Shown piece by piece: positions 15,838-55,095 of a stretch of DNA of 64,000 nt. Every line of letters begins with the position of its first letter. Position 1 is the stretch's first letter. This DNA is from Flavihumibacter cheonanensis (lineage in GTDB: Bacteria > Bacteroidota > Bacteroidia > Chitinophagales > Chitinophagaceae): assembly GCF_022352215.1 (NCBI RefSeq), contig NZ_JAKRWF010000001.1, positions 1,612,001 to 1,676,000 on the forward strand, written 5' to 3'. The position numbers and the translations under genes are program-made. Below the pieces are notes generated by a model that saw only the letters and a program-made list of their open reading frames with translations, had not been told where the DNA came from and searched no databases.

Positions 15838-15897
15838 AAGGGCAATTTTGGGCGCAAAGATCAGTATTTAGTTCGTATTTTACTGAAAACAACCGGC

Positions 15898-16725: not shown

Positions 16726-16786
16726 TGTCGGATTTGTACTAGTTTTCACACATTTCAAAAGAGATTTTTGCAGTAAATAATTCGTT

Positions 16787-17683: not shown

Positions 17684-17701
17684 TTGTTCAAATGAACTCA
17701 T

Positions 17702-20906: not shown

Positions 20907-20994
20907 AACAATCGTTTTAGTTGAGAGCTTACCAGGACACAATCTGTGGATTTTTCGGAGTATTCCATCTTTAACAGCTTAATTGGATAAGGAA

Positions 20995-21543: not shown

Positions 21544-21565
21544 CTTAGGGAAAGCTTTCTGATAT

Positions 21566-22558: not shown

Positions 22559-22564
22559 TCATTT

Positions 22565-24082
22565 ATGTATAAAAAAATCATTCAGCTCTTTATCTGCTCA
22601 TTTATAACAGTGTTCGTACAGGCTCAATCCGTTAATATCAATTCCAACGCTTGGAAAAGTGTAATAAAAGAGACAGATCAGCTTTTTACAGATTTTGCCA
22701 CCAAAAACAACCAGCCAGGATACATCTATGGCATTGTTGCAAATGGGAAACTGGTGCATTTGAAAACTTCGGGTATGGCTAACCGGGAGATGGGAAATCC
22801 GGTTAAACCCGGTTCTGTTTTCCGTATTGCATCCATGTCGAAAAGTTTCGCAGGAGTAGCTATTCTTCAATTACGCGACCAGGGCAAACTGCAACTCGAT
22901 GAACCGGCGCAGCTTTATATACCGGAACTATCTGACATACAGTATCCTACCACCGATGCACCACCGATCACCATCCGGCACCTACTGACACATGCCGCCG
23001 GATTTCCGGAAGACAATCCGTGGGGCGACCGGCAACTGGATATTTCAGAAGATAGCATGCACGCCATGTTCAAAAGAGGGATATCCTTTTCTACAAGTCC
23101 GGGTACCGCTTATGAATACAGCAATATGGGATTTGCCATGCTGGGTGCCATCATTAAAAAAGTATCCGGCATGTCCTACCAGGAATACATTGAAGAATAT
23201 ATCTGGAAACCACTCGGCATGCACCATACCTATTGGGAATACAGTGCTGTACCCGATAGTACACTAGCAATTGGATACCGTTGGCTGAATTCCAGCTGGG
23301 AAGCACAACCGATGGAACACGATGGTGCATATGGCATCATGGGCGGCATCCTTACTACCGCAGAAGATTTTTCAAGGTATATGAACTTCATGCTAAGTGC
23401 CTGGCCGGCCAGAAATGGATCCGATAACAGTCCGCTTCAAAGAAGTTCTTTGCGAGAAATGCAGCAACCCTGGAATTTCGCAGGGCTGAACCCCAACTAC
23501 AAGTACCCGGATGGAAGGATTTGTCCAACTGCAGCCGGCTATGGCTACGGACTTCGCTGGAGCAAGGATTGTGAAGGTCGTATAACGGTGGGGCATAGTG
23601 GCGGATTACCAGGTTTTGGCAGCAACTGGACCATCCTTCCTGAGTATGGAATCGGCATTGTGAGTTTCATCAACCAGACCTATGCACCCGCCACCACTTT
23701 GAATATTCAATCGCTCGACCTGCTGGTAAAGAAAGCCGAACTACAACCCCGGGCTGTTCCACCATCCCCTATCCTATTGCAACGTCAACAGGAACTAACT
23801 GCCTTATTGCCGGATTGGAAAAATGCTGAACAATCGTCCATCTTCGCAGAAAATTTCTTCTTCGATTACCAGGTTGACAGCTTACGGAAAGAAGCCAAAT
23901 CAGTTTTCCAGGCTGCGGGGAAAATTCTCCGGAGTTCTCCGATTATCGCGGAAAACAACCTGCGGGGAACGTTTACCCTTCATGGAGAAAAAGCTGATTT
24001 GAACGTGTATTTTACCTTATCACCCGAGCAACCAGCTAAAATCCAGGCTTATCGTATACGATTGGAACCCCGGGAAAAATAA
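22565..24082 (+). CDS. Serine hydrolase, class C beta-lactamase-like
   Basis: This 505-residue exported enzyme of the penicillin-binding-protein/AmpC fold has a signal peptide at residues 1-21. The active site shows S90-x-x-K93 (ASMSKSF), Y185-S-N187 (YEYSNMGF) and the HxG equivalent of KTG in GHSGGLPGFGS. A C-terminal ~110-residue extension is a small lipocalin-like beta domain often seen in this group. It probably cleaves D-amino-acid peptides or esters; nothing shows beta-lactam resistance. It is the last gene of the TlpA operon and nearly meets the convergent transthyretin-like gene. Confidence 0.88.
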   Translation: MYKKIIQLFICSFITVFVQAQSVNINSNAWKSVIKETDQLFTDFATKNNQPGYIYGIVANGKLVHLKTSGMANREMGNPVKPGSVFRIASMSKSFAGVAILQLRDQGKLQLDEPAQLYIPELSDIQYPTTDAPPITIRHLLTHAAGFPEDNPWGDRQLDISEDSMHAMFKRGISFSTSPGTAYEYSNMGFAMLGAIIKKVSGMSYQEYIEEYIWKPLGMHHTYWEYSAVPDSTLAIGYRWLNSSWEAQPMEHDGAYGIMGGILTTAEDFSRYMNFMLSAWPARNGSDNSPLQRSSLREMQQPWNFAGLNPNYKYPDGRICPTAAGYGYGLRWSKDCEGRITVGHSGGLPGFGSNWTILPEYGIGIVSFINQTYAPATTLNIQSLDLLVKKAELQPRAVPPSPILLQRQQELTALLPDWKNAEQSSIFAENFFFDYQVDSLRKEAKSVFQAAGKILRSSPIIAENNLRGTFTLHGEKADLNVYFTLSPEQPAKIQAYRIRLEPREK

Positions 24083-24083
24083 G

Positions 24084-24491
24084 TTAATTCCCTCTGTACG
24101 TGGAATAACCAAATGCGGATAAAGTAATCGGCACGTGATAATGAGAGTTGTCTTTGATTTCAAAAACTATTTCCACAAAGGGATAAAAGCTTTCCAGCTG
24201 CTGTTTTTTGAAATAGTCGCTGGTCAGAAAAACCAGCTTGTAGATACCTGTATTGGACTTCCCTTCCGGCAAAAAATCACCAACCCGGCCATTTTTATCT
24301 GTTGTTTTTTGATCCACGACTGTCCACGATTTGGCTGCAGGATCCATTTTTTCTAAGCGAATGGGTACACCAGCCGCGGGTGCACCCTTAGCAATATCCA
24401 GGATATGACTCGAAAGCTGGTAGTTATTCGACTGCGAAAAACAAACCATAGAAAAACAGGCAAAACAAACTGCCAGTAGTACTGATTTCAT
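24084..24491 (-). CDS. Exported transthyretin-like (hydroxyisourate hydrolase family) protein
   Basis: This is a 135-residue protein. From the ATG at 24491 a signal peptide is clear (KSVLLAVCFACFSMVCFSQ). The mature part starts YQLSSHILDIAKGAPAAGVP, the N-terminal signature of 5-hydroxyisourate hydrolase, and ends YSTYRGN, close to the family's C-terminal YRGS. The active-site His (SSHILD), Arg (RLEK) and Tyr-Arg-Gly are thus present. The cytosolic enzyme acts in urate breakdown; an exported form fits periplasmic TTR-like proteins. No other urate genes lie nearby. It is 43 bases downstream of chrA. Confidence 0.85.
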   Translation of the reverse strand: MKSVLLAVCFACFSMVCFSQSNNYQLSSHILDIAKGAPAAGVPIRLEKMDPAAKSWTVVDQKTTDKNGRVGDFLPEGKSNTGIYKLVFLTSDYFKKQQLESFYPFVEIVFEIKDNSHYHVPITLSAFGYSTYRGN

Positions 24492-24534
24492 GACGAAGTT
24501 ATTTGGAAGAGAAACAGGAAGGGATGAAAAGAGT

Positions 24535-25689
24535 TTACCGCACAAATGTTAAAATATACCCCAGCAGCGCACCACCCACAATTATCAATGCACTGTTGAC
24601 GCGGGGATAAAAAAAGGAAACCAAAAATCCTGCAACCGCAATTACGATCATTCTCCAGTCGGAAATGGTTTGCTGGCCCATTTCAATCAATACCGCCAGG
24701 ATGATGGCTACCGAAACTACATTTACCGTATCGAGAAAAGCTGCCATAACCGGAGATTTTCGCAGATACGGAACTATTCGCTGTAACAGTGCGACAAACA
24801 AAAAAGAAGGTAGAAAAATGCCAACAGTAGCCGCAACTGCACCTCCAAAACCACCCAATTGCCAACCAATAAAAGTTGCTGCCGAAAATACAGGACCAGG
24901 TGTAAACTGTCCCACAGCAATGGCATCAATCAACACCTGTTTCGATAACCATCCCTTACTTACCAATTCTGCATCCAGAAAAGCAAACAGGACATAACCG
25001 CTGCCATATAAAATAGAACCGATCTTTAAAAACATCCAGAAGATTTTCCCATTCATCAGATCAGGAACTTCCTGAACAATCTGTAATAGTGGAATTGGCA
25101 GAAATCCTTTCAAACTGCGATTGGTGAGTGCATAATACAGTAGTATACCAATTGCCCCGGCTCCAAACAAAACATATACTTCATGCATACCTGCCAGTAC
25201 AGCTATCAGCGCCAATATACCCAACAGTGCCAGCTGTCTGTTTTTCACCGCTTTTTTACCCAGACTGATCATCACCGCCAGCACTACTGATAGTACGGCC
25301 GGTTTGATGCCATAAATAAAAGGAGCTACTTCCGGCAATTGCCCGTATCGCTGATAGGCCCAGGCCAACAGACCTGTTATCAGCACCGCAGGAACGATAA
25401 AGCAAACACCCGCAACTACCAAACCTTTCCAACCTACCCGTTCAAAACCACAGTGCATCGTCATTTCTGTGGAATTGGGACCGGGTATTAAATTGGTGGC
25501 ACCCACCAGGTCGAGGAAATGTTGCGCGGTCATCCAATTGCGCTTGCGCACCACCTCTTCTTCCATCAGGGCGATATGCACAGCCGGACCACCAAACCCG
25601 ATTATTCCAAGTTTCAGAAATACACGCGCCACTTCGGTTAGCCGTTGCCGTTGGTTTGATGCCGGACTGGCTGTTGACTGCTGCTCCAT
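24535..25689 (-). CDS. chrA: Chromate transporter, ChrA family
   Basis: This is a 384-residue membrane protein with two homologous CHR halves, the usual long form. Half one has KLGIIGFGGPAVHIALME and DLVGATNLIPGPNSTEM. Half two has KIGSILYGSGYVLFAFLD and IAVGQFTPGPVFSAATFIG. These FGGP/GSGY and PGPN/PGPV motifs define the family, which exports chromate by anion antiport and in some hosts serves other anions. It follows the TonB receptor gene after 16 bases, so it is part of the same minus-strand transcript. Confidence 0.92.
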   Translation of the reverse strand: MEQQSTASPASNQRQRLTEVARVFLKLGIIGFGGPAVHIALMEEEVVRKRNWMTAQHFLDLVGATNLIPGPNSTEMTMHCGFERVGWKGLVVAGVCFIVPAVLITGLLAWAYQRYGQLPEVAPFIYGIKPAVLSVVLAVMISLGKKAVKNRQLALLGILALIAVLAGMHEVYVLFGAGAIGILLYYALTNRSLKGFLPIPLLQIVQEVPDLMNGKIFWMFLKIGSILYGSGYVLFAFLDAELVSKGWLSKQVLIDAIAVGQFTPGPVFSAATFIGWQLGGFGGAVAATVGIFLPSFLFVALLQRIVPYLRKSPVMAAFLDTVNVVSVAIILAVLIEMGQQTISDWRMIVIAVAGFLVSFFYPRVNSALIIVGGALLGYILTFVR

Positions 25690-25705
25690 AACAGCCGCTA
25701 AAATA

Positions 25706-27724
25706 CTAAAGCCCTGCTTTTAACGGTTCCGAAAACCCGATAATAAGATTCAGAAACAGATTTCTTCCCATACGGGGTATCCTGTTCCAATCAGCAAATG
25801 TGGTATAATACCTGTTGAAGATGTTTTCTACTCCACTTCTAAGCTGAAAGGTATTTTTCTTCCATTTAAATTGGTATCCGGCCCCCAGGCTTGCGATGGT
25901 ATATGCCGGTGCAGCAGTTTCACCAAATAGTGGACTGTACTTCCATTGTTTTACCGCCCCATCCAGGCTGGCCTCTGCAGAGAACGCATTTCTGGCATAT
26001 TGCAAACGAACGCCATAAGAAAATGGCTGCATCATTGGTAAATCCAGCTGCTCATTCGTATATCCTCTGCGGTAAATAGCTTTTCCGGAAACCGATAAAC
26101 CGGAAACAATACCATAACTGGCATTCAAACTGCCGGAGTAAACTGTTGCAAATGGAACCTGTTGATAAATTTTGATGCCGGATGCCCCAATTGTCATGGG
26201 TATCAATCCGGGTGATGGCATTCCTACAATATAATTTCGGATCTGAAACGAGCTACCCTGCCCTTTCAAACTAAACCGATCCGTTGCAAAAGCAACAGTT
26301 CCGTTCAATGAAAATGATTGCTCATTTTTTAAACCGGGATTACCGATATAATCAAACCGGTCAAAACTGTTAAACAGATAAAATCCATAACCCTCCGAAA
26401 CACTGGGTGCGCGTTCGCTGTAGGAAGCCCCAAACGAAAATCGCCAATTGCCGGGATGGTACTGCAAATTCGATCCGAAATTTTTCAGGAATCGGTTTTT
26501 TACAGACTTCATATCCGGGTAAAAAATTTGCAGTGATTTAACTCCGGATTCATCTTTCAAATGATGCTGCTGAAAAGCAACACCGGCTGAACTGTTGAGC
26601 GTCCATTGATGGTGGAACTGAAAATTATCCTCCATAAAAAGTCCGGCATACCAGGTATGCACATCTGGCCAGGTCAGCATAAACATCTCCTTTTCATTCG
26701 GATCATTTGGGTACATGGTCATCTCCGCAAGCGATCGGTTATGATGCGCACTGGCAGTTAGTTTGAACTGATGACGGGATGATTTCCCTTCCATTCGGCT
26801 ATACATGCCCGTTGTTGTACTCCAACCGGGCATATCCATACGAATCGGCACAACCGGACGTTTCGTATCGTCCATGATATGCGTCACTTTGTTATGATAT
26901 AGTTTAGTTTCCCATTCCTGCCAGGTGGTTGACAGGTGGTGACGGGTATACCCAATAGAAGCAATAACTGCTTTTGCGCTGGATACATCCATCGGCAATG
27001 CGGGGTATCCGATATCGCGTGCATCATCAACAATAACAGAAGCTTCCAGCTGCTTATGCTCATTCAATTTAAATCCTGCAGCTGCAGAAAGATTGAATTT
27101 GGAAAATTGACTGTAAAGGATTTCCTGGTTTTTTCCGTCGCGATAATTTTCCGCTTTTCGAATGGTGAAATCAAGATCAGTATACCATCGGTTTCTGCTA
27201 TACGAAATGTCCGAACCCAAAATGCGTTGTTGGTTATTGGACTCAAAACCACTGAAGAGATGGGTCAAAAAAAGATTGTTTCCAAAACCGGATTTTTTTC
27301 GCACCAGGTCCAGACTTCCACCAATGGATGCACCATGCGCATTTCCTGATTGTCCATTTTTTATATCGGACCTCGACAGATTCGTTGTTTCCACATAGGA
27401 ACTGACCGGGTCCATTTTATCGGTACAGGCACCGTAAATGCGCATACCATCAATTGTAATTACAGAACGCTCTGAAGAGAGTCCATTTAACATGGGCTCC
27501 CATGCATAGGCTCCTCTTTTGATCAGATCAACCTGTTCGTGTGAGGAAAGATATTGATCCACGGTACTCAGCAGATTACTGTTTTTATTCCGGCTTGCCT
27601 GGCGGGAAATCACAATTACCTCGGTTAATTCCTGAACTTTTGTAGAATCTTTTTGCGCAGGTACTGTCTGACCTGTGGAGGACAGGCCAGACAGTAACAA
27701 TGCGCAGCATATTAGCTGCTTCAT
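25706..27724 (-). CDS. TonB-dependent receptor, probable copper uptake
   Basis: This 672-residue outer-membrane receptor starts at the ATG at 27724 (MKQLICCALLLSGL, a signal peptide). The plug domain holds TVDQYLSSHEQVDLIKRGAY, VITIDGMRIYGACTDKMDP and GNAHGASIGGSLDL. A ~22-strand barrel follows and ends in an aromatic strand (MGRNLFLNLIIGF). The plug motif ACTDKMDP contains Cys-x3-Met, the arrangement reported for the copper receptor OprC/NosA. The Met-rich and Cys-rich neighbours encoded just upstream support a copper role. No SusD partner and no carboxypeptidase-like N-terminal domain are present, so this is not a glycan-type receptor. Confidence 0.88.
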   Translation of the reverse strand: MKQLICCALLLSGLSSTGQTVPAQKDSTKVQELTEVIVISRQASRNKNSNLLSTVDQYLSSHEQVDLIKRGAYAWEPMLNGLSSERSVITIDGMRIYGACTDKMDPVSSYVETTNLSRSDIKNGQSGNAHGASIGGSLDLVRKKSGFGNNLFLTHLFSGFESNNQQRILGSDISYSRNRWYTDLDFTIRKAENYRDGKNQEILYSQFSKFNLSAAAGFKLNEHKQLEASVIVDDARDIGYPALPMDVSSAKAVIASIGYTRHHLSTTWQEWETKLYHNKVTHIMDDTKRPVVPIRMDMPGWSTTTGMYSRMEGKSSRHQFKLTASAHHNRSLAEMTMYPNDPNEKEMFMLTWPDVHTWYAGLFMEDNFQFHHQWTLNSSAGVAFQQHHLKDESGVKSLQIFYPDMKSVKNRFLKNFGSNLQYHPGNWRFSFGASYSERAPSVSEGYGFYLFNSFDRFDYIGNPGLKNEQSFSLNGTVAFATDRFSLKGQGSSFQIRNYIVGMPSPGLIPMTIGASGIKIYQQVPFATVYSGSLNASYGIVSGLSVSGKAIYRRGYTNEQLDLPMMQPFSYGVRLQYARNAFSAEASLDGAVKQWKYSPLFGETAAPAYTIASLGAGYQFKWKKNTFQLRSGVENIFNRYYTTFADWNRIPRMGRNLFLNLIIGFSEPLKAGL

Positions 27725-27734
27725 TGTAGGTGCT

Positions 27735-28574
27735 TTAAAATTCAACTTCAAAAAACAGGCTGCTGGATTCATTATCACCTGCAACAGGTTCTCCCTTCAC
27801 AACCGTTCCATTTGCATTCAGCAGTTGGAGATTAATTTTCCAGTAACCGGTCATGGTCAGGCTCAGTTTGCCCCGGTACATCTTATCTGCACTCTGTGTA
27901 AGATGGATATTATTGGGGGATCCATGATTACCCATACCAGGCATACGCGGATCAATCTGGATGGTATAGTTATCTACCGGGTCGAATTGCATCATGTTGG
28001 TCATGGTGTAGAGCAACACACTCATATCATTTAATGCAACTTTTGGATTGGAAGGCTCCATCATCGCCAGCACATACCGTTTGTTATCAGATCCCATTAC
28101 AGATTGTACTTTCCTGCGTGTTGGATCTGTAACCTGAATGCGTTCTTTTATCGTATAGGTTTGTCCATTGATCGTATAAGTAAGACTTAATTCCCAATAT
28201 TCCATATCGTTTCCCGGCATTTGGAAAACAATAAATCCCTGGTAGGTGTATTGAGCACCCTGTTTTTTTTCAATTGCTGAAAAAGGACAGGAGTGACTCA
28301 TATTCATCATTTTCATAACCGGCATCCAGCTACTGGTAGCATTGTCAACCAGGCTACCACTGGTGGTTTTTATCTGGAAATAAATGGGATTATATCCGGT
28401 TTCAAACTTTCCATTTGCTGTGTACAGGTCTATAATATGCGTGGCATTCGAGATTGATTTAACGAGAGTAAGGCCTTCCAGTTCATCCGCGGGTGCGGGT
28501 TTTTCATCATTTTTGGAACAGGCGGTAAATAGTAGGGTAAGGGATAACAGTCCCCATATGAACAGAGATTTCAT
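27735..28574 (-). CDS. Met-rich lipoprotein, probable copper-binding partner
   Basis: This 279-residue lipoprotein has signal IWGLLSLTLLFTAC. Two beta-sandwich-like halves follow, reminiscent of FixH/YtkA-type domains. Clusters of potential soft-metal ligands stand out: WMPVMKMMNMSHSCP in the first half and DPRMPGMGNHGSP in the second. The gene ends ten bases before the TonB receptor gene, so it is surely co-transcribed and probably hands metal to or from the receptor. The family is not one I can name with certainty. Confidence 0.75.
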   Translation of the reverse strand: MKSLFIWGLLSLTLLFTACSKNDEKPAPADELEGLTLVKSISNATHIIDLYTANGKFETGYNPIYFQIKTTSGSLVDNATSSWMPVMKMMNMSHSCPFSAIEKKQGAQYTYQGFIVFQMPGNDMEYWELSLTYTINGQTYTIKERIQVTDPTRRKVQSVMGSDNKRYVLAMMEPSNPKVALNDMSVLLYTMTNMMQFDPVDNYTIQIDPRMPGMGNHGSPNNIHLTQSADKMYRGKLSLTMTGYWKINLQLLNANGTVVKGEPVAGDNESSSLFFEVEF

Positions 28575-28616
28575 TTTTATAAATTAAATAATTAGACAAT
28601 AGATGGGTTAGAGTGC

Positions 28617-29006
28617 TTATGCTATTGTCTGCGGAGGGCGATCCGAACGGGAGAGAAATTGAAACTTATATAAATTGGAATATACAGCAACAGGAGCAGG
28701 CTGATCAGTTACCAGAAGAGAGGGTAATTGCAACTTAATTTTTTCGGTTGGTTGAAAAAGCAGGTATTCTGCCTGAAGGGAAACAAGGGTTTCGTTGGCT
28801 TCTTTACATTCTTTTTCTTTCAGCAGCTGGGAGAGTTTACATTTTCCATCACAATGCAACTGCGGCCGGTCTTTATTCACACAGAATGTGTTGATAAAAG
28901 CGGTGGTATCAACCTGGTAATACATTAACAACAGGGAGTTCTTCATTGCTCCAGTAAGCACTACCAGTAATAAAACGCTGGTTACTATGTTGTGAAGTAA
29001 TCGCAC
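28617..29006 (-). CDS. Small Cys-rich membrane-anchored protein
   Basis: This 129-residue protein has one N-terminal hydrophobic helix (NIVTSVLLLVVLTGAM) and an exported Cys/His cluster FCVNKDRPQLHCDGKCKLSQ. The cluster could bind a metal such as copper. It starts with GTG at 29006; the next Met is at residue 21 and would spoil the membrane helix. It is the first gene of the receptor operon, 42 bases ahead of the Met-rich lipoprotein. The function is unknown. Confidence 0.7.
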   Translation of the reverse strand: MRLLHNIVTSVLLLVVLTGAMKNSLLLMYYQVDTTAFINTFCVNKDRPQLHCDGKCKLSQLLKEKECKEANETLVSLQAEYLLFQPTEKIKLQLPSLLVTDQPAPVAVYSNLYKFQFLSRSDRPPQTIA

Positions 29007-29023
29007 CTGACTTATCTACCCTG

Positions 29024-29055
29024 CGAAATTACAACAACAGTACACTTACTCCAAA
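29024..29055 (-). promoter_or_regulatory. Candidate promoter of the copper-receptor operon
   Basis: On the minus strand, TTTG (29055-29052) is followed after 20 bases by TAATTTCG (29031-29024), one mismatch from TAnnTTTG. The predicted start site would lie ~10 bases before the GTG at 29006. Confidence 0.45.
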
Positions 29056-29092
29056 AAGCATTTATCAGGAACAGGAATGATTTTCATCAGGC

Positions 29093-29464
29093 TTATTCAT
29101 GCACCTGACAGGCTTCCAATATATTTCCATCCGGGTCCTGAAAAGTAAAATAAGTAACTGCATGATCAGTAATCAGATCAGAAACCTGCACACCATTTAC
29201 CTTTAATTGGTCAAGAGCAAGCACCGCATTACTAGTTCTGAAAATGGGATAAGAACTAGTAGTTGATTTAGCCGCTATTGGCTGATCTGTCTGCCAGATG
29301 GTTAAACTGGTAGCACTTTTTGTATCCAACACCGCCAGTTGATGGATAGGATCTTCATACATGCAGACAAGCTGTAAATTTTCTAAGTACCAGGATTTTG
29401 ACCTTTCAAGATTCGAAACACGAATAATGATGGTGTCAATTCCCTGAAATAAAGATTCACTCAT
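29093..29464 (-). CDS. VOC family (glyoxalase/dioxygenase-like) protein
   Basis: This 123-residue protein has the vicinal-oxygen-chelate fold. The start is the ATG at 29464 (MSESLFQGIDTIIIRVSN). Typical marks are DTIIIRVSNLERSKSWYLEN at the start and FTFQDPDGNILEACQ near the end, whose Glu is one metal ligand. A single domain of this size works as a dimer. Substrate unknown. The YrdB-like gene lies 11 bases upstream on the same strand. Confidence 0.85.
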   Translation of the reverse strand: MSESLFQGIDTIIIRVSNLERSKSWYLENLQLVCMYEDPIHQLAVLDTKSATSLTIWQTDQPIAAKSTTSSYPIFRTSNAVLALDQLKVNGVQVSDLITDHAVTYFTFQDPDGNILEACQVHE

Positions 29465-29475
29465 AATTAAATTTA

Positions 29476-29832
29476 TTATGAAAGCAACCACCGGATGCGT
29501 TCCCAGGAGATCAGGTAGTGCAATATCGATATAGTCGCAAACAGATTGGCAGCTTTACTAAGATGCAAATTTTTCAGCATCCAATATCCTGCAACGAATA
29601 AAAAGACTTCCAGCAGTATCCGAACCCAACCGGGAATGGCAACGATCGCTTTACCAGGGTCACCGGGAACTTTGAAAATTCCCCAAAGCAGCATACCAGC
29701 GAGTGGTATAAGCAAGCTGAACAGGTATTTTTGAAACCCTTCAAAACTATGCCACGACCAGTAAGCATAGATGCCAACCAGTGCGAGTTCCAGCCCGAAA
29801 CGTAATAGCAGATTAAGCGGATGATTATGCAT
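29476..29832 (-). CDS. YrdB-like (DUF2568) membrane protein
   Basis: This is a 118-residue protein with four hydrophobic helices. The N-terminal LLLRFGLELALVGIYAYWSW and the central MLLWGIFKVPGDPGK followed by RILLEVFLFVAGYW match the YrdB/DUF2568 pattern. The function is unknown. It is the first gene of a two-gene unit with the VOC protein and is divergent from the hydrolase gene. Confidence 0.75.
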   Translation of the reverse strand: MHNHPLNLLLRFGLELALVGIYAYWSWHSFEGFQKYLFSLLIPLAGMLLWGIFKVPGDPGKAIVAIPGWVRILLEVFLFVAGYWMLKNLHLSKAANLFATISILHYLISWERIRWLLS

Positions 29833-29868
29833 ACTACCTCAAACAATAAAGTTAGTAAGAAACAATAG

Positions 29869-29876
29869 TACATTTG
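29869..29876 (+). promoter_or_regulatory. Candidate -7 box of the hydrolase gene
   Basis: TACATTTG fits TAnnTTTG exactly and lies 22 bases before the ATG at 29899. No good -33 TTTG is seen upstream. Confidence 0.4.
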
Positions 29877-29898
29877 CAGTTCCCTAACAGGCACCCAT

Positions 29899-30828
29899 AT
29901 GAAAATAACTGTTTTACTGGCAACCTTTATTTTAGCTACCCTGCTGGCTTTTTCTTCGGATACGACACGAATAATCCAAACATCAGATTCCGTTAATCTT
30001 TTTGTGCATATTAGTGGAAAAGGCGCACCGGTATTGTTTCTCCATGGCGGGCCTGGCTCTAACTCCGGTTATTTTGAACATACCGGGGGAAATATATTTG
30101 AACAGGCCGTTCAAATGGTTTACCTCGACCAACGCGGATGTGGCCGTTCCGGCAAGTCGGAAAGCAGTAACTATTCACTCACAAGAATGGTACAGGACTT
30201 TGAAGAAGTCCGGAAATCACTGGGAATTAAACAATGGATAGTGATGGCGCATTCTTTTGGCGGTATACTGGCAACGGCATATGCAACAGCACACCCTGAT
30301 GCAATTAAAGCGATGGTATACCTGAACTGCACCGTAAATATAGATTCCTCAGCAACTAGTGGAATTGAACATGCAGTAGCACTCCTGGAAAAAAAGGGAA
30401 AAACCTATCCGGAACTAACCAACGATTCTCTTCCATTATTGCAACGATGGGGACAAGCATTTGGAAAGCTTAGAGAAGAAGATTTGTTCTATGGGCTGAT
30501 GTTTAACAGCCGGGAAAATTTTCAGTACCATGATTCAGTTACGCTTGCGTATGGAAAAGAATGGGATTTTGGCAATAAAGTCTGGGGATACAAGGAATAT
30601 TTTGCAGACTTTATACCGGAAACAGCCAGTATTAAATGCCCTGTTTTAATAATAGGCGGAACAAAAGACTACACTATCGGAATCAGGCATCCGGAATTGA
30701 TGCGCTTTCCAAACAAACAAATAAAATATCTGGAAGGGGGGCATGCATTGTATTTGGAAAACCAGAAAAACTTATACAATGCGGTGAAGCCTTTTCTAAA
30801 TAAATACGGTAGAACGAAAACAAAGTAA
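29899..30828 (+). CDS. Exported alpha/beta hydrolase, prolyl iminopeptidase-like
   Basis: This 309-residue protein has a signal peptide (MKITVLLATFILATLLAFS). The alpha/beta hydrolase core shows LFLHGGPGSNSGYF (oxyanion HGGPG), YLDQRGCGRSGKS, the nucleophile elbow VMAHSFGG, the acid region VLIIGGTKDYT and the His near YLEGGHALYLE. HGGPG plus DQRGxGxS is the proline iminopeptidase (S33) signature. It is the last chromosomal gene before the tmRNA scar. It probably releases N-terminal residues from peptides in the periplasm; related esterases share these motifs. Confidence 0.88.
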   Translation: MKITVLLATFILATLLAFSSDTTRIIQTSDSVNLFVHISGKGAPVLFLHGGPGSNSGYFEHTGGNIFEQAVQMVYLDQRGCGRSGKSESSNYSLTRMVQDFEEVRKSLGIKQWIVMAHSFGGILATAYATAHPDAIKAMVYLNCTVNIDSSATSGIEHAVALLEKKGKTYPELTNDSLPLLQRWGQAFGKLREEDLFYGLMFNSRENFQYHDSVTLAYGKEWDFGNKVWGYKEYFADFIPETASIKCPVLIIGGTKDYTIGIRHPELMRFPNKQIKYLEGGHALYLENQKNLYNAVKPFLNKYGRTKTK

Positions 30829-30841
30829 ACGATTGGATTTT

Positions 30842-30999
30842 TTAGCGTGCAGGCGTTTCAACAAATTCAACTCCAAATTCAGCTCCCATAATCAGCCAGG
30901 TCAAGTTTGTGAGGATTCAAAATTTGCCACCACAACATCAATTTCAGATTCAATGTTTCGAAGAATTGTAACTGCTTCATGAATCTTCAAGGCAGTCAT
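30842..30999 (-). pseudogene. Possible gene remnant with one frameshift
   Basis: On the minus strand an ATG at 30999 opens a 32-residue frame (MTALKIHEAVTILRN and onward) that stops at TGA 30903-30901. A -1 shift at that point continues with TWLIMGAEFGVEFVETPAR and a TAA. Both pieces look protein-like, so a decayed short gene is possible. The family is not recognised, and chance cannot be excluded. Confidence 0.25.
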
Positions 31000-31017
31000 T
31001 TTTTTGGAAAATGGTAG

Positions 31018-31094
31018 TCCTTACCTTGTCCTTACCTTATCCTTACCTTTTTCTTACCTCATAGAAACCTCATGGAAACCTCATCCTAACCTCA
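31018..31094. repeat. Seven tandem 11-bp repeats
   Basis: Seven directly adjacent 11-base units start at 31018, 31029, 31040, 31051, 31062, 31073 and 31084. The first three are TCCTTACCTT plus one variable base; the last four end ACCTCA. All keep the core ACCT at the same place. The array lies ~20 bases before the start of the possible remnant on the minus strand. The 11-base period keeps the core on about one face of the helix, so a protein-binding array is possible. Confidence 0.85.
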
Positions 31095-31166
31095 AAGGCA
31101 GGAATAAACTTATCATGAAAGAAATAGGTCATATAATGTATGTGTAATAAATGATCGGAAGCCAGA

Positions 31167-31203
31167 AATTAAAAAGGCGACCCGTTTAGCCACCTTTTTA
31201 ATT
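31167..31203 (-). terminator. Hairpin terminator, probably of ssrA
   Basis: AATTAAAAAGG (31167-31177) pairs perfectly with CCTTTTTAATT (31193-31203) around a 15-base loop. The A/T tracts work in either direction. It lies ~28 bases past the tmRNA 3' end on the minus strand, where an ssrA terminator would be. Confidence 0.65.
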
Positions 31204-31230
31204 GAAGTCGAACATAAATCATTGTGAATG

Positions 31231-31251
31231 TGGAGCTGGGGGGAGTCGAAC
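31231..31251 (-). ncRNA. ssrA: 3' end remnant of tmRNA; attachment-site scar
   Basis: The minus strand reads GTTCGACTCCCCCCAGCTCC plus A. This is a TTCGACT T-loop, the 3' strand of a T-stem and an acceptor end CAGCTCCA, as in tmRNA (whose 5' end GGGGCTG pairs with it). The bases upstream on that strand (CTTT) do not form the 5' T-stem, and no other tmRNA part follows, so only the last ~20 bases are here. Integrases commonly recombine inside such T-loops and leave this scar. Read as one end of an island. Confidence 0.65.
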
Positions 31252-31434
31252 AAAGCTCACAACTAATTAAATATCAATAAGATGGAAATGACAAAACCTA
31301 TTAGTTCAATGAATTATTCAATCACTATTTTTTACTTTGTAGTGTGTGCTGAAAATACATAAATTTTACCAATAGTTTCGAAATCTTGACAAACTACTTT
31401 AGACCGTTTTTATCTTGTTTATCCAAAACAGGAT

Positions 31435-31684
31435 GTGTTAGTTGGAAATTCCGGATAAATTGACCATTGAATTCCGCAAATAATTGATCATTGGATTCTG
31501 GTCTTAATTGATTACTGATTTCCAAGGCTAATTTATAGTTGTTGGTGATATGAACGAGGAGAATTCAGATACTATTTTGAATCTGTCAAGAAAATGATAC
31601 TAACTAGTTAAATACTAAAATGGCACTTACTTTTAGTGGTCAATTTGCCCCGGAATAAAGTGGCCAGTTCGGAGGAATATGCAC
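31435..31684. mobile_element. Remnant ends of an IS21-like element
   Basis: At 31444-31523 a ~24-base unit recurs three times (complement form TGGTCAATTTATCCGGAA, with TGATCAATT and TAATCAATT variants). At 31638-31684 the same motif appears twice on the plus strand (TGGTCAATTTGCCCCGGAAT, then TGGCCAGTTCGGAGGAAT) and ends TGCA. Inverted ends made of repeated TGGTCA...CCGGAAT units are characteristic of IS21-family elements. Only ~115 bases lie between the ends, with no istA/istB genes, so this is an internally deleted relic. Confidence 0.55.
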
Positions 31685-31752
31685 TCCAATATGGTGCCAG
31701 CGTTTATTCTTGCGAATAATTTATCTACTTTTATTTTAAATACAACCCCGTA

Positions 31753-32076
31753 ATGCAAGCTTATATGCCTGGGAAATTTGAATTTCTAATCACTGGTGAC
31801 AATGAATTATCGTCAGAGCAGTTCAACACCTTACTTTTTCCTACCACCTATCAGGTAAAAAAGATTGAGCGAGATGGATGGAGCTATTTTCAAACTGAAG
31901 GTGATGAGTTTTCTTATTCCTGGGAACCACCGGGTATCCAAATGACCTTCAACAAAGAATGCAGCTTCCAAAAAGCAAAGCAAATTGCAGATGAGGTGGT
32001 TCAAAACCTTGTAAAGGCAGGCTTCAATGTTGAATTATTAGTGATTAACAATACGCAAATCACTACATTCCAATAA
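31753..32076 (+). CDS. Hypothetical protein, 107 aa
   Basis: This is a small soluble acidic protein, MQAYMPGKFEFLIT at the start (a second Met at residue 5 is also possible). No signal peptide, membrane helix or known motif is seen. The pattern of short strands and one long helix (FQKAKQIADEVVQNLVKAG) looks like a compact alpha/beta fold. It is followed by the DUF3885-like gene in the same direction. Codon use is AT-rich like the neighbours in the island. Confidence 0.55.
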   Translation: MQAYMPGKFEFLITGDNELSSEQFNTLLFPTTYQVKKIERDGWSYFQTEGDEFSYSWEPPGIQMTFNKECSFQKAKQIADEVVQNLVKAGFNVELLVINNTQITTFQ

Positions 32077-33775: not shown

Positions 33776-35047
33776 TTAGTTTTTATCGCAGCAAGATTTA
33801 CCGCTTCCGGGTGAACATGATTTATCTTTTTCACAACTTTCTTCAGATGCAATACAAAGTTCTACATGAGGCATTTTGCCTTTGCCTACATATTTTTCTC
33901 CGGCTTGTTGTATCTGGCTCTCTACTTTATTATACGCTTCTGTTGTTAAGTCTTTGTAAGAAGAAATTGAAAGAAACAGGTCAGCATAAATCATTTCAAT
34001 ATCCGCCTGAAACTGTTTTTCAAATGATGGCTTTATCAATTTCTTTTCTTTGTAACTGGCAATAGTATTCTTTGCAATAATACCTGCTTCTTCTTTACTT
34101 AATTTATCAACCTCTTTGCCCCTATACCATTCACTGCTATTCGGAAATGTATTAGCATAATCAGTTGCTTCTGTTTGGGCTAAAGTAGTAAGTTCAATAT
34201 TATGATTGGTGCTAACCGTTTTAATAATTTCTACTTTTTTATCTGCTTCGGTTTTAGTATTCCATTTTACTGCTACAACTGTTCCCGTTTTATTTAACCA
34301 TGCCCCTTCTACTGCATCATTATACTTTTCTAAATCAACTAACAAAAACTTTGCTTTACTGCCGCAACCAATTGATGGGGCAGCATGACAAACTAATGGA
34401 GCTTCGTAGAATGAAACGCCTGTATTATCTGCATTCATAAAATCATAGCTTTTTACTTTGTATCCTGTTTTATTAATTGCTGCCTCTATTGTCTTTTCAT
34501 CAACTTTTGATTTATCAAAAGTGACTAAACTGCTCCGGGTGGCATAAGAAGTTTTATAAGCTAATACTCCATTTACTTTAGACAGTTCATTGTTTACATG
34601 TTCCTCGCAACCCTCGCAGGTCATACCTTGTATTGTGAACTTTACCTCTTGTTTGTTATCAACCACTGCAAGTGTTGCCTGCACTTTTGGTTTTGGATAA
34701 AACACTTTTGCATACAATGGAAAAGTCATCATCAGAATAGCAAAGACAGTTACTATTCCCAAAAATGTTTTGGACTGAAGGAATGAAGCCTTCTTAGTTG
34801 TTTCGCAATTGCAATCCATATCATTAGTTTTTATTGCTTTCAATTTTAAATACCATGCAAATGCCAATACAGCAATTGACAGTCCTATTAAATAAGGTCT
34901 TGCTGGTTCTATCCATGAAAAGTTAGCGGCAATGCTGCTGCTACCGGCAAGTAATGCAATAACAGGAGTAATACAGCAAAGTGAAGCTGCAATAGCAGTA
35001 AGAACACCTGCGCCGGTAAATGTGCCTGTAGATTTTATACTTATCAT
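33776..35047 (-). CDS. MerTP-type mercury transporter with C-terminal extension
   Basis: This is a 423-residue protein. Residues 1-120 form a MerT-like part with three helices, including the Cys pair C24-C25 (ASLCCITPVIALLAG) and CNC before the third helix. Residues ~130-200 form an HMA domain with GMTCEGCEEHV (C144, C147). This MerT-MerP fusion is known in Bacteroidota at about 200 residues. The remaining ~220 residues are extra: APLVCHAAPSIGCGS, an alpha/beta part, a helical part and a Cys-rich tail CSPGSGKSCC. The start overlaps arsR by ATGA. No mercuric reductase gene (merA) is visible. Confidence 0.85.
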   Translation of the reverse strand: MISIKSTGTFTGAGVLTAIAASLCCITPVIALLAGSSSIAANFSWIEPARPYLIGLSIAVLAFAWYLKLKAIKTNDMDCNCETTKKASFLQSKTFLGIVTVFAILMMTFPLYAKVFYPKPKVQATLAVVDNKQEVKFTIQGMTCEGCEEHVNNELSKVNGVLAYKTSYATRSSLVTFDKSKVDEKTIEAAINKTGYKVKSYDFMNADNTGVSFYEAPLVCHAAPSIGCGSKAKFLLVDLEKYNDAVEGAWLNKTGTVVAVKWNTKTEADKKVEIIKTVSTNHNIELTTLAQTEATDYANTFPNSSEWYRGKEVDKLSKEEAGIIAKNTIASYKEKKLIKPSFEKQFQADIEMIYADLFLSISSYKDLTTEAYNKVESQIQQAGEKYVGKGKMPHVELCIASEESCEKDKSCSPGSGKSCCDKN

Positions 35048-35421
35048 ACTGTTTCCAGTTTTTGAGTTTGTACATTAATATGTTTGAAGAATGGCTTTAA
35101 TATCTTTAAGTTTTCCTGTATAAGAGAATAATAAATTGTTTGCCCTTCTTTCCTGGTTTCGACAATGTTTCCATCCTTCAACTTTCGCAGATGCTGTGAT
35201 ACGGCAGGTATACTCATGCCTAAAATATCAGCAAGGTCGCAGGGACATAATTCTTTTTCTTCTTCCAATAAATAGATGATCTTCAGCCTTACTTCATTGC
35301 CTGCTAAAGCCAATATATTAGACAGGTTTGCAAAAGACTTCTGTGCAGTCTTCAACTTGCTTTTACAATTCTTTATTTGCTCCTGATCTGCAAATAGCCT
35401 GATGCAAGTATTATTTTCCAT
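35044..35421 (-). CDS. ArsR/SmtB family metal-responsive repressor
   Basis: This 125-residue winged-helix repressor has the recognition region CDLADILGMSIPAVSQHLRK. Helix alpha-3 carries C59-P-C61 (ELCPCDL), the place where ArsR/CadC-type sensors bind thiophilic metals, with extra N-terminal Cys at 6 and 19 that resemble the CadC layout. It should leave the operator when mercury, cadmium or lead binds. The operator at 35445-35468 sits ~25 bases upstream, and the gene leads the merTP operon. Confidence 0.92.
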   Translation of the reverse strand: MENNTCIRLFADQEQIKNCKSKLKTAQKSFANLSNILALAGNEVRLKIIYLLEEEKELCPCDLADILGMSIPAVSQHLRKLKDGNIVETRKEGQTIYYSLIQENLKILKPFFKHINVQTQKLETV

Positions 35422-35426
35422 GAGGG

Positions 35427-35457
35427 CAAAGATAGGATAAATAATTATTTAAGCAAA
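35427..35457 (-). promoter_or_regulatory. Promoter of the arsR-merTP operon
   Basis: On the minus strand TTTG (35457-35454), then 19 bases, then TATCTTTG (35434-35427): a full match to the Bacteroidota consensus. Only five bases separate it from the arsR ATG, so transcription would start at or within the start codon. Confidence 0.7.
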
Positions 35458-35468
35458 TGCTTAAATAA
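35445..35468. promoter_or_regulatory. ArsR operator palindrome
   Basis: A perfect inverted repeat with 11-base arms, TTATTTAAGCA and TGCTTAAATAA, is separated by two bases (AA). This is the size and look of ArsR/SmtB operators. It covers the -33 box, so bound repressor would block polymerase. Confidence 0.8.
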
Positions 35469-35494
35469 TAGAACAAGCTGCATGACATCATCTT

Positions 35495-37480
35495 TTACAC
35501 CTTCATTCTCTGTATTCTCACTGCATTTAAAATAGCCAGTAAAGCCACTCCCACATCAGCTATCACCGCCTCCCATAGAGTGGCTATGCCACCTGCACCC
35601 AAAATCAATACAAATATTTTCACAGTCATCGCCATAATGATATTTTGCCAAACGATGTTCCGGGTTATCTTACCAATTTTGATTGCAGAAACAATCTTAT
35701 GGGGCTGGTCGTTCTGAATAACCACATCTGCTGTTTCAATAGTGGCATCACTGCCTAAACCGCCCATAGCTATTCCTGCATCAGCTAAAGCCACAACAGG
35801 CGCATCATTCACACCATCGCCAACAAAAGCGATATGCCTGCCTTCATCTTTTAGTTTCTGCACTTTCTCAACTTTACCTTCCGGTAACAAATCTCCATAA
35901 GCTTCATCTATACCAATTCTCTTTGCGACTTCATCAACCACAGACTGCTTATCACCAGAGAGCATTACTGTTTTAATATCCAAGCTGTGCATGTCTTTGA
36001 CGGCTTGTACTGCATCTTCTTTTATTTCGTCAGCAATAGTGATATAACCTGCATACTGATTGTTGATTGCCACAACAACGATTGTGTCAACAATCTTTTC
36101 TATTTCCGAAGGGTAAGGTATATTGTACTTCCTCAACAGTTTTGCATTTCCGGCCAGCATATCCTTTCCCTCCACTTTTCCCTTTAAGCCATGACCTGAA
36201 ATTTCTTCTACTGCATCGGCCTTGATATCATTTATTGTATCACCCGCATATTCTGTTACTGCTTTGGCTATCGGGTGGGTGGAGTTCTTTTCCAGTGCGG
36301 CGGTAAGTTTTACCAATTCCTTTTCATCCATATCTACAGGAACAACTTGTTGTACTTTAAATACTCCCTTCGTCAGTGTCCCGGTTTTATCCATCACCAC
36401 CGCATTCACTTTTGTCATTACATCAAGAAAATTTCCTCCCTTAAATAAAATGCCGTTGCGGGATGCAAGACCTATTCCACCAAAATATCCCAACGGAATA
36501 GAAACGACCAATGCACATGGACAACTGATAACTAAGAAAACCAATGCCCGGTAGAACCAGGTTTGAAAATTATAATCATCCACAAAAAAGTAAGGAACAA
36601 AACATACCGCCACTGCAAGAAAGAAAACGATGGGAGTATAAATTTTTGCAAACCGAGAAATGAATAATTGTGTTTGTGATTTTCTTGCGGTAGCATCCTG
36701 TACCATTTCTAAGATCTTACTCAGTTTGCTGTCTCTAAACAGCGCTTTTACTTTAATTTCTGCAACGGTATTGAGGTTGATCATTCCTGCAAGGATAGTC
36801 TCACCTTTGTATTTTGTATCAGGTTTACTTTCGCCGGTCAATGCTGCTGTATTGAAGGAAGCATTCTCTGAAAGTAATTCTCCGTCTAATGCTACTTTTT
36901 CTCCCGGCTTCACCTGGATAGTTTCCTCTAATTCAATAATCGAGGGATCGGCAACAAGCGGTGAGCCATTTCTTATCACCGTTACTTCATCAGGTCTTAC
37001 ATCCAGCAGAGCTTTGATACTTCTTTTTGCATTATTAACCGCTGCATCCTGGAACCATTCCCCGATTTGATAAAATACCATTACTGCCACACCTTCTTCA
37101 TATTCGCCAATTACAAATGCGCCAATGGTGGCAACACTCATCAATACAAACTCATTGAATATATCTCCTCGTTTTGATTTCCTGAAAGCAAGGGCTAAAA
37201 CGTTTCTGCCAGCTAAGAAATAGGCAATACCGTTTATTCCCAGTGACGGTGTTTTAGGTAGTTCAATTTTAAAGCCATATTCCAATATTAACAAAACGAT
37301 TAAAATGAATAGGGCCAATAATAAATCCCAGTGTTTTTTCCATCCCGGGTCTTCTTTGCTTTCTACTTTATGATTGTGTCCATCATCAGCAAAAGGGGTT
37401 CGTTTTTTTTCTTCGTTGGTTTTTATCAAATCACCTTTTTGTATTTCTGTAATCTGATGATCTTCGTGTTTGTGTTCCAT
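35495..37480 (-). CDS. Heavy-metal P1B-type ATPase (Zn/Cd/Pb type)
   Basis: This is a 661-residue metal-exporting ATPase of the inner membrane. A His-rich cytoplasmic N-terminus (EHKHEDHQ, DDGHNHK) takes the place of an HMA domain. The actuator motif TGES, the membrane CPC in VISCPCALVVSIPLG, the phosphorylation loop VMDKTGTLTKG, the SxHP-type loop KNSTHPIAKAV and the hinge GDGVNDAPV are present. The last helix has IADVGVALLAILNA, whose Asp marks the P1B-2 (zinc, cadmium, lead) class. The ATG at 37480 is preferred over a TTG at 37489. It follows the UreH-like gene directly. Confidence 0.93.
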   Translation of the reverse strand: MEHKHEDHQITEIQKGDLIKTNEEKKRTPFADDGHNHKVESKEDPGWKKHWDLLLALFILIVLLILEYGFKIELPKTPSLGINGIAYFLAGRNVLALAFRKSKRGDIFNEFVLMSVATIGAFVIGEYEEGVAVMVFYQIGEWFQDAAVNNAKRSIKALLDVRPDEVTVIRNGSPLVADPSIIELEETIQVKPGEKVALDGELLSENASFNTAALTGESKPDTKYKGETILAGMINLNTVAEIKVKALFRDSKLSKILEMVQDATARKSQTQLFISRFAKIYTPIVFFLAVAVCFVPYFFVDDYNFQTWFYRALVFLVISCPCALVVSIPLGYFGGIGLASRNGILFKGGNFLDVMTKVNAVVMDKTGTLTKGVFKVQQVVPVDMDEKELVKLTAALEKNSTHPIAKAVTEYAGDTINDIKADAVEEISGHGLKGKVEGKDMLAGNAKLLRKYNIPYPSEIEKIVDTIVVVAINNQYAGYITIADEIKEDAVQAVKDMHSLDIKTVMLSGDKQSVVDEVAKRIGIDEAYGDLLPEGKVEKVQKLKDEGRHIAFVGDGVNDAPVVALADAGIAMGGLGSDATIETADVVIQNDQPHKIVSAIKIGKITRNIVWQNIIMAMTVKIFVLILGAGGIATLWEAVIADVGVALLAILNAVRIQRMKV

Positions 37481-37489
37481 ATAGCTCAA

Positions 37490-38101
37490 TTAAATAAAAT
37501 ATGAAATAATACCGGTGACAATTAGAACCAACCCGGTTACAATTCCCGAATTGTGTTCCCATTTATGCCAGTTGAGTTTCAATAAACCTTTGTAAGCAAA
37601 TCGTATCCATATCACCATGCCGGTGATGGTTATAACACCGTACATCATCGCTATCAATCCCAGCATCCACCATCCCTTTGTTCCTGCCAATAAAAAATAG
37701 GCCTCTATTTCCAAACAGGGCGACAAAAACATGGCTATTACCAAAGCACTGATTATTTTGCCTTTCGACTTACCGGCTATTTTTTGTTTTTCCAAATGAA
37801 AGTGATGATGGACATAATGCTGCCTGACAAAAAATAGCCCGATTAGTATCAAAATGGATGGAGCAATAATGCGAGTGAAATGTTCAATGTTTTCATTTAA
37901 TTCAAGCCCAATAAGGCCAAGCAAAATTCCGATTATAATAGTGCTAAGAACATGGGCCAGACCGGAAACAAATGTCACCCTCTCAGTTTCGCCTAAATCC
38001 CAATTCTCCCTTTTGCCTATTGCAAGCACTGGCAGCCAATGACTGGGAATAACAGCATGTAAGAGACTTATTATTAAACTTCCGGTTATGATTGAAAACA
38101 T
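37490..38101 (-). CDS. UreH/NiCoT-like polytopic membrane protein
   Basis: This is a 203-residue protein with about six helices. The first helix SLLHAVIPSHWLPVLAIG has a His-x5-His motif like that of nickel/cobalt and UreH/RcnA-type transporters. A His-rich loop (FFVRQHYVHHHFHLEKQ) and SPCLEIEAYFLLAG follow. It is likely a divalent-metal transporter. It is encoded directly before the P1B ATPase and four bases after a hypothetical gene, so these form one transcript. The metal is unknown. Confidence 0.7.
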   Translation of the reverse strand: MFSIITGSLIISLLHAVIPSHWLPVLAIGKRENWDLGETERVTFVSGLAHVLSTIIIGILLGLIGLELNENIEHFTRIIAPSILILIGLFFVRQHYVHHHFHLEKQKIAGKSKGKIISALVIAMFLSPCLEIEAYFLLAGTKGWWMLGLIAMMYGVITITGMVIWIRFAYKGLLKLNWHKWEHNSGIVTGLVLIVTGIISYFI

Positions 38102-38105
38102 AGAA

Positions 38106-38561
38106 CTACAAATTATCCATTTTTAAAGGCAGGTTTCTAAAAATTTCTTCCACTACAGCTTGTTTATCCTTTGCAAAATGATCAAGCTCTATTTTTATTT
38201 CGCCATTTGATGAAATACCACCACCTAACACTCCTTTTATCTTTTTCAAGCTCTCTTCCAACGGAATACTTATGCCACTAGCATGGTATGGGTCTGCAAT
38301 ACCCGTTACTGATGTGGGCAGGTGAATATTTACTCCAGTGATAGCAGTCTCCGTATTGGTTACTATTAATTCAATTTCGTCAAGCGATGCATTTTTCAAT
38401 TCATAACTAATGTAAATCTGTGCGAATTTTTCATCTTTCCTAATTATCTCTACTTGTTCTGTAGCGCAATAATTTTTCAAGGCAGCTGTAAGATGCTCAT
38501 ACCAGGTGGGATCATTTCCCCTGATAGTCACATTAAAAAAAAGTTGTATCGTTGCCATCAT
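38106..38561 (-). CDS. Hypothetical protein, 151 aa, metal-cluster associated
   Basis: This is a soluble protein without signal peptide. Two alternating strand/helix halves, from IQLFFNVTIRGNDPTWYEHL through LDEIELIVTNTE and then a Gly-rich turn VLGGGISSNGEIKIELD, hint at a ferredoxin-like fold. No Cys-based metal motif is visible. The start has two consecutive ATGs (38561, 38558). It is co-transcribed with the membrane protein and ATPase downstream. Confidence 0.6.
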   Translation of the reverse strand: MMATIQLFFNVTIRGNDPTWYEHLTAALKNYCATEQVEIIRKDEKFAQIYISYELKNASLDEIELIVTNTETAITGVNIHLPTSVTGIADPYHASGISIPLEESLKKIKGVLGGGISSNGEIKIELDHFAKDKQAVVEEIFRNLPLKMDNL

Positions 38562-38568
38562 GTTTTTT

Positions 38569-38640
38569 TTATTTTTTTAAAGCCTGTATTGTGATTGCTC
38601 CACCAAGATTCGCTCTCTTCAATTTCGTACTGTATTCCAT
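38569..38640 (-). other. 23-residue ORF upstream of a metal gene
   Basis: A short frame MEYSTKLKRANLGG ending ITIQALKK ends eight bases before the next gene. Its end resembles the in-frame tail found after the methyltransferase stop (TTTIQALKN at 39521-39589). It may be a real micro-protein or a repeated remnant. Confidence 0.3.
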
Positions 38641-38698
38641 TTTTACTGACAGTGGTTTTTTAGACTGCAGATATGTGTACTTTTTGTGCTGATGCACA

Positions 38699-39496
38699 TT
38701 ACAATTTTAAAATCCTGTAAGCTCCGAATCCGACCAAAATAAATACTATAATACCTATAATTAAATCGGGTAGCTTAGATGATGTAAAATACACTAACGC
38801 CCCTGCTATCATTACGCCTATGTTTACCATTACATCATTTGAAGTAAATATTGTGCTTGCCTGCATGTGGGCCTCTTTGCTCTTTGACTTTTGCAATAAA
38901 TAAAGTGAAACTGCATTACCGATTAGAGCGAAAAATGAAATGCCTATCATAGTTTTAAACTCTGGCGGCTCACCATAACCTAAAAATCTTCTCACTACTT
39001 CTATAAAGCCAAATACTGCAAGAAGCAACTGGAAGTAACCGCTGATATGTGCAATTCTTCTTTTGTGAATTGCCGCTTTGCCTACTACAAAGAGAGCTAA
39101 ACCATATACAATTGAATCGGCAAGCATATCAAGGCTATCTGCCACCAGTCCCATCGAACCGGAAATGAAGCCCGTAACAATTTCAAGAGCGAAAAAGAAA
39201 AAGTTTATTGCCAGAACCTGCCAAAGCAATTTCCTTTCCTGTTTTGTGGTATCTGTGAACAATAATTCTTCTTCATCGTTTATTTCTTCTGTTGCCAAAA
39301 CTGTTGAATTGAAATTCAGGCTGTCAATGGCAGACGTTATAGGCTCGGCTTTGCCTTCATGAATTACATCAAGTTTGCGGCTAGGTATGTCAAACTGCAG
39401 TGATTTAATGCTTTCAAAACCTTCTAATTTCATTCGTACTATGTTTTCTTCCGAAGGGCAATCCATTTTTGAAATCTTGTAAGTCGTCTTGTTCAT
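38699..39496 (-). CDS. Cation diffusion facilitator-like transporter with N-terminal HMA
   Basis: This is a 265-residue protein. Residues 1-75 form an HMA-like domain with a single-Cys motif KMDCPSEENIVRMK. The membrane part has about six helices with the CDF site in GLVADSLDMLADSIVYGLAL and a second site near FTSNDVMVNIGV. The usual cytoplasmic C-terminal domain is missing, as in related Bacteroidota proteins. It probably exports zinc or another divalent metal by proton antiport. It lies between the methyltransferase and the 151-residue hypothetical gene. Confidence 0.82.
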   Translation of the reverse strand: MNKTTYKISKMDCPSEENIVRMKLEGFESIKSLQFDIPSRKLDVIHEGKAEPITSAIDSLNFNSTVLATEEINDEEELLFTDTTKQERKLLWQVLAINFFFFALEIVTGFISGSMGLVADSLDMLADSIVYGLALFVVGKAAIHKRRIAHISGYFQLLLAVFGFIEVVRRFLGYGEPPEFKTMIGISFFALIGNAVSLYLLQKSKSKEAHMQASTIFTSNDVMVNIGVMIAGALVYFTSSKLPDLIIGIIVFILVGFGAYRILKL

Positions 39497-39520
39497 TACA
39501 AACTATTGAATGGTTATAAC

Positions 39521-39589
39521 TTAATTGTGATTGTTTTTCAAAGCCTGAATAGTAGTTGTCTTTCCATGCTTGGCAATCCCTATGCTTCG
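39521..39589 (-). other. In-frame tail after the methyltransferase stop
   Basis: Directly after the TAG of the methyltransferase gene the same frame continues 22 codons (RSIGIAKHGKTTTIQALKN and on) to a TAA. The tail resembles the 38569-38640 peptide. There is no start codon, so it is either read-through sequence or a remnant. Confidence 0.3.
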
Positions 39590-40246: not shown

Positions 40247-40261
40247 AAAATAGTTTTTAGT

Positions 40262-41572: not shown

Positions 41573-41573
41573 A

Positions 41574-53131: not shown

Positions 53132-53137
53132 CCAGGT

Positions 53138-55084: not shown

Positions 55085-55095
55085 AACCCGGATTC

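Follow-up and report, generated by a model that had tools for sequence, protein, structure and literature searches.

A 22-bp tmRNA scar in Flavihumibacter as one border of a putative 108-kb CTnDOT-type integrative and conjugative element in ssrA

The principle used here is stated in the Islander work (PMC4383910): the target gene is regenerated at one end of the island and a displaced 3′ fragment, oriented alike, remains at the other, with the integrase inside and tmRNA as the most enriched target. The Flavihumibacter locus shows no difference from such islands in principle. The Dehalococcoides ssrA islands (PMC3146451) have a 20-bp ssrA repeat; they differ from the present locus in using a serine recombinase, in being often arranged in tandem and in being proposed as mobilizable rather than conjugative. 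The 10K island of Riemerella anatipestifer (PMC6764341) likewise belongs to the Bacteroidota and has direct repeats and a tyrosine integrase next to an RNA gene, but it uses tRNA-Arg, has a 53-bp repeat and is 10 kb long. Integrative and conjugative elements (ICEs) are reported from more than half of the Bacteroidetes genomes surveyed in PMC3158045; a literature search of open-licence papers found no such element for the genus Flavihumibacter (Chitinophagaceae). The insertion principle is already known, and the present analysis adds a mapped element, an empty site and a near-identical copy in another species.

The window, which is the whole stretch of 64,000 nt that was analyzed, covers C110:1612001-1676000 of a 4.84-Mb Flavihumibacter assembly with 241 contigs (genome G000). 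The first-pass annotation had read a scar of the tmRNA 3′ end on its minus strand, with the rest of the gene missing, and had proposed it as the left border of a large island. The scar (window 31230-31251, minus strand; GTTCGACTCCCCCCAGCTCCAC) indeed matches the complete ssrA gene base for base over the last 22 bp of its 3′ end, C110:1751295-1751316 on the minus strand, and ARAGORN finds neither a tRNA nor a tmRNA in the 64-kb window. The 20-mer TTCGACTCCCCCCAGCTCCA, located at window 31231-31250 (minus strand), has no match at up to 3 mismatches in 100 shuffles; in the whole genome, at up to 2 mismatches, it has two sites, which are the scar and the 3′ end of the complete ssrA (C110:1751296-1751315, minus strand). 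The two repeats are on the same contig and the same strand with their starts 108,065 bp apart, and the other end of the proposed island lies that far to the right of the scar. We take the repeat to span the last base of the 5′ T-stem strand, the T-loop and the acceptor strand, to one base past the discriminator. Another TTCGACT is present on the minus strand at window 31207-31213, 37 bases beyond the scar's own, and also in the empty site of a relative described below; it may be a chance occurrence or the trace of an older event.

The genome search yields one tmRNA over the family cut-off (C110:1751293-1751668, minus strand, 139.7 bits), and ARAGORN reads a complete tmRNA with the tag GNTQYAMAA at L005:16296-16669 (minus strand); a weak tmRNA match of 19.5 bits elsewhere in the genome is read by ARAGORN as tRNA-Ser. 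The terminator-like hairpin noted beyond the scar folds at window 31167-31203 (minus strand) with −18.9 kcal/mol (56-nt stretch; z = −5.2; none of 200 shuffles folds as well), while a simple consensus terminator scan of 30800-31800 lists no terminator, this hairpin included. Because the same hairpin directly follows the ssrA tail in the relative G005 (contig C226), it is taken to be the native ssrA terminator, displaced 108 kb from its gene. In the window's genome, the complete ssrA is followed by a different hairpin that has a T-rich tail (81 nt, −22.0 kcal/mol; z = −4.0; a single one of 200 shuffles folds as well), which appears to have been brought by the element and whose sequence recurs 3′ of ssrA in G002, G008 and G014 and, more diverged, in G007. 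The first-pass annotation had held that a complete ssrA with a differing 3′ end and terminator would speak against the scar; the 3′ end is identical and the terminator does differ, but a test on the terminator would mislead here, because the original one would have stayed at the scar when the element brought another.

The interval between the repeats is 108,043 bp long and ends at C110:1751294, with window positions 31252-64000 as its part inside the window; its G+C content is 41.5%, compared to 45.0% and 46.2% in the left and right flanks as read. The change in gene content that had been described at the scar is borne out on both of its sides. To the left, 16 of 17 selected ORFs from 14128-30828 are found in the same order in the relative G004, the last of them encoding an alpha/beta hydrolase (29899-30828, plus strand); to the right, the ORFs include metal-efflux families. 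In particular, Pfam assigns to selected ORFs of 33776-45959 (minus strand) an HMA/MerT-like protein, an ArsR-type regulator, a P-type ATPase, a cation-efflux protein, HlyD_D23 and ACR_tran/OEP proteins, and to 51854-61705 (plus strand) a second ACR_tran (two ORFs), OEP and HlyD_D23 proteins and a cation-ATPase. At 41574-45959, the ACR_tran pump and outer-membrane efflux (OEP) domains are combined in one fused protein, and the pump at 51854-55084 is split over two adjacent ORFs that cover profile positions 1-415 and 417-1020. The Pfam scan comprised 60 proteins, 56 of them from the element, which corresponds to 56 of its 100 selected ORFs (indices 27-126). The far end of the element (31252-31443) is common to G014 (100%) and to an otherwise different island in G004 (93% over 215 columns, repeat included). 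Among 396 genomes of the order, 11 have a match to this far end, with full length in its own genome only and 22-47 bases in the others; G004 and G014 are unlisted in this sample and evidently lie outside it.

As the first-pass annotation stated, there is no integrase in the window; it had also predicted a second copy of the repeat beside a tyrosine integrase gene, and this copy is the identical 3′ end of the complete ssrA. The integrase there (L005:14813-16036, minus strand) is inside the interval, has 407 aa and no internal stop, starts 259 bp from the repeat at ssrA and reads away from ssrA. A 22-base scar read by eye can thus reveal an element whose integrase is about 106 kb away. The protein has Arm-DNA-bind_5, Phage_int_SAM_5 and Phage_integrase domains (Pfam), with motifs at residues 287 (QK), 348 (FHIAR) and 374 (LGH...Y), and TGLA at 257 without the usual arginine; a missing arginine at this type of position is common in integrases of this phylum. 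Its best matches among solved structures are IntI4 and XerA, over a C-terminal stretch. A second integrase gene (L005:13351-14543, minus strand) adjoins the first; it is broken, is 46-64% identical to the first in two pieces and may be a relic of an earlier element. At the matching place, G014 has the C-terminal piece of a related gene.

Counted from ssrA, the gene order is integrase, mobilization genes, RteC and tra genes, and metal-efflux cargo toward the scar. Further in from the integrases, Pfam identifies a NikA/MobC-like protein, a relaxase (PF03432) and a coupling protein with YWFCY and T4SS-DNA_transf, then RteC (PF09357, E = 1e-65) and the tra-type families P-loop_TraG, CtnDOT_TraJ, Transposon_TraM, DUF4133, DUF4134 and DUF4138, the last three of which we take to be TraF, TraE and TraN, respectively; the remaining scanned ORFs of the tra cluster have no Pfam match. 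By these family names (TraG, TraJ, TraM, DUF4133, DUF4134, DUF4138, RteC, relaxase and YWFCY coupling protein), the element resembles the CTnDOT-type conjugative transposons of the Bacteroidota. CTnDOT itself integrates at short chromosomal sites outside tRNA genes; the Flavihumibacter element differs in its target, the T-arm of tmRNA, and in having metal-efflux genes as cargo. The proposed island stands as such, and because it carries a conjugation and mobilization gene set, it is better described as a putative CTnDOT-type ICE. At the DNA level, traG is matched in 53 other genomes of the 396-genome order sample, at best with 74% over 1.8 kb, and plasmid records show no match to 12.5 kb of the tra region.

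It is very highly probable that a CTnDOT-type ICE with its own tyrosine integrase inserted in the T-arm of ssrA, regenerating the gene and displacing the host's 3′ end by 108 kb. Directly observed are two repeats of like orientation, a complete ssrA, an integrase reading frame without stops, the tra and mob genes, the empty site of a relative and a near-identical copy in another species. The circular form of the ICE would have recombined into the T-arm through its own integrase, which is presumed to act at this site, with a crossover inside the 22 bp common to host and element; the 7-base T-loop is the most likely place for it. The ssrA 3′ end that the element carried would have made the gene whole at the integrase end, now with an element-borne hairpin terminator, and the host's own 3′ end and terminator would have been pushed 108 kb off and left as the scar. 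If the repeats recombined with each other, the site would be empty again, and the circle would be taken into a new cell by the relaxase and conjugation genes; the element presumably still excises and transfers. Both borders of a 108-kb conjugative element are thereby fixed to within a 22-base repeat.

The same site was compared across 15 genomes of the genus, using the 22-mer at up to 2 mismatches. It is present in 14 of them, with none in G010 (75% complete); G001, G003, G006, G009, G011, G012 and G013 have a single copy, followed by sequence that is, by eye, unlike the element end, and G000, G004, G005, G007 and G014 have two, those of G007 and G014 on different contigs. The GAPDH-like gene of the left flank, named from its sequence without a family search, is about 5 kb downstream of ssrA in G011 and about 14 kb downstream in G006. 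The relative without the island that the first-pass annotation had called for is G005, where on C226 the last 99 nt of ssrA run directly into the beyond-scar sequence, with the 22-mer common to both alignments. The G005 bin is 55% complete, with 490 contigs, and C226 carries just those last 99 nt of ssrA, which was counted against the preferred explanation. Another G005 contig, C161, has a different ssrA allele, and the bin may therefore mix strains; this allele is followed by sequence matching the scar side of G004 (96% over 56 columns and 85% over 152), and C161 resembles an unoccupied version of the G004 site. The G004 repeats, at C11:772623 and C11:826733, enclose a different island of about 54 kb, with host flanks on both sides 89-91% identical to those of the window's genome; at a length of 100 bp or more, this island matches the element nowhere but in the far 215 bp (93%) and a single 144-bp stretch (69%). 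The G004 island (L070-L072, G004:C11:772901-829000) also contains a distant integrase match over residues 8-257 of 407 (33%). Further, the element end follows ssrA in G002 and G008, yet a second 22-mer is absent at up to 2 mismatches, which also counts against the preferred explanation. In G002 (L080, G002:C79:1-12000), the element end extends for about 150 bases after ssrA and the 10 kb beyond contain no integrase match; the element there is perhaps decayed or replaced.

G014, Flavihumibacter sp. UBA7668, has a near-identical copy of the element body. With positions counted from window base 1 and runs of N aside, 8 differences separate the two bodies over about 79.4 kb of alignment (31,227-111,073); segments that seemed variable between G014 and G000 are actually runs of N in G014. 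A diverged patch at about 111.1-112.2 kb (L008, about 7070-8200), in a TonB-receptor gene amid otherwise ~99.99-100% identity, looks like local gene conversion or selection on the receptor. From 112.5 to 118.5 kb the identity is 100.0% per 500 bases, after which it drops through the mobilization genes (from 94 to 68%), and most of 123.3-137.8 kb has no match in G014; the integrase proteins are 95% identical. On the host side of ssrA, identity is 65-76% in 500-base intervals, and the GAPDH-like proteins are 87% identical. The near-identity of the body, set against that of the host DNA, implies that transfer between the species was recent, and the differing mobilization/integrase end implies that one of the two copies is a hybrid. 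At both of its ends, the G014 element passes into host DNA of G014 itself, which argues against contamination. The simplest account would be a recent transfer together with an exchange of the mobilization/integrase end, possibly with two elements in tandem. Excision, target choice and hybrid formation are testable here, because two species have near-identical copies and one genus offers full, empty and otherwise occupied sites.

The broken integrase beside the intact one, the G014 copy that has the body but not the mobilization/integrase end in common, and the G004 island that is otherwise different beyond its far 215 bp would all be consistent with a composite, in which at least two elements entered ssrA successively and the inner repeats were lost, so that the scar is the oldest border and the present integrase that of the youngest element. 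However, no third copy of the 22-mer was found when both strands of 142.5 kb were read at up to 6 of 22 mismatches, and one relaxase and one set of tra families were identified in the 56 of 100 selected element ORFs scanned; a composite is possible but, overall, rather unlikely. It is distinctly less probable that the element integrated in the proposed way long ago and has since lost its ability to excise and transfer. Such a fossil would agree with the broken second integrase, which also weighs against the preferred explanation, but the first is open over all of its 407 aa, and the few differences from the other species' copy indicate recent movement.

That the scar arose by chance, or that a rearrangement unrelated to mobile elements brought part of ssrA here, has almost no probability left. 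Both readings are rejected by the shuffles, with 0 of 100 giving a match, and by the empty site in G005; the repeats also have the same orientation with the integrase at the ssrA side, and a second island is present between the same repeats in G004. Insertion of an ICE by its own integrase is the preferred explanation.

Integrases related to that of the element were compared at 76 loci from named genomes, mostly Flavobacterium and relatives, from which 63 near-full matches were examined and 13 partial ones left out. In 50 of the 63 loci, the integrase begins at a distance of 248-306 bp from the 3′ end of an RNA gene that precedes it on the same strand (31 tRNA-Ser, 11 tmRNA, 7 tRNA-Val and 1 tRNA-Asp); the other 13 have none. 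On an integrase tree of 64 rows, with L126 and L150 left out for stops and rows without an RNA gene set aside in the change counts, the four targets need 3 changes, which is the fewest possible, and the target therefore follows the integrase lineage. The distinction between tmRNA and any tRNA needs 2 changes, or 1 without the long-branch row L145, and separate origins of tmRNA targeting are not required by the tree. A one-clade test rejected a single group of the 12 tmRNA rows (p-AU 1.7e-28), but it is not relied on, because it placed L143, despite its tmRNA tail, and also the second-integrase piece, which is unlabelled, outside the group. For the tmRNA side, 1 of 8 genomes of the Flavobacterium kin has a second full-length repeat copy, and for the tRNA-Ser side 2 of 12 do, in every case on a different contig; this was likewise counted against the preferred explanation.

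A broader reading, offered tentatively and with somewhat more doubt than belief, is that different ICEs dock at ssrA in this genus and reassort there. The body, about 87 kb that include the conjugation and cargo genes, would have moved between species very recently, and its mobilization/integrase end would have been swapped with that of another ssrA element, probably while both were in tandem at the shared repeat, by recombination near the mobilization genes; the integrase family would have shifted among the T-arms of tRNA-Ser, tRNA-Val and tmRNA. At five kin loci (L131, L133, L134, L143 and L156), a partial tRNA-Ser or tmRNA tail, and no whole RNA gene, is seen by eye upstream of the integrase; in L131, L134 and L156 it is a partial tRNA-Ser 3′ tail beside the integrase, as tandem arrays would give.
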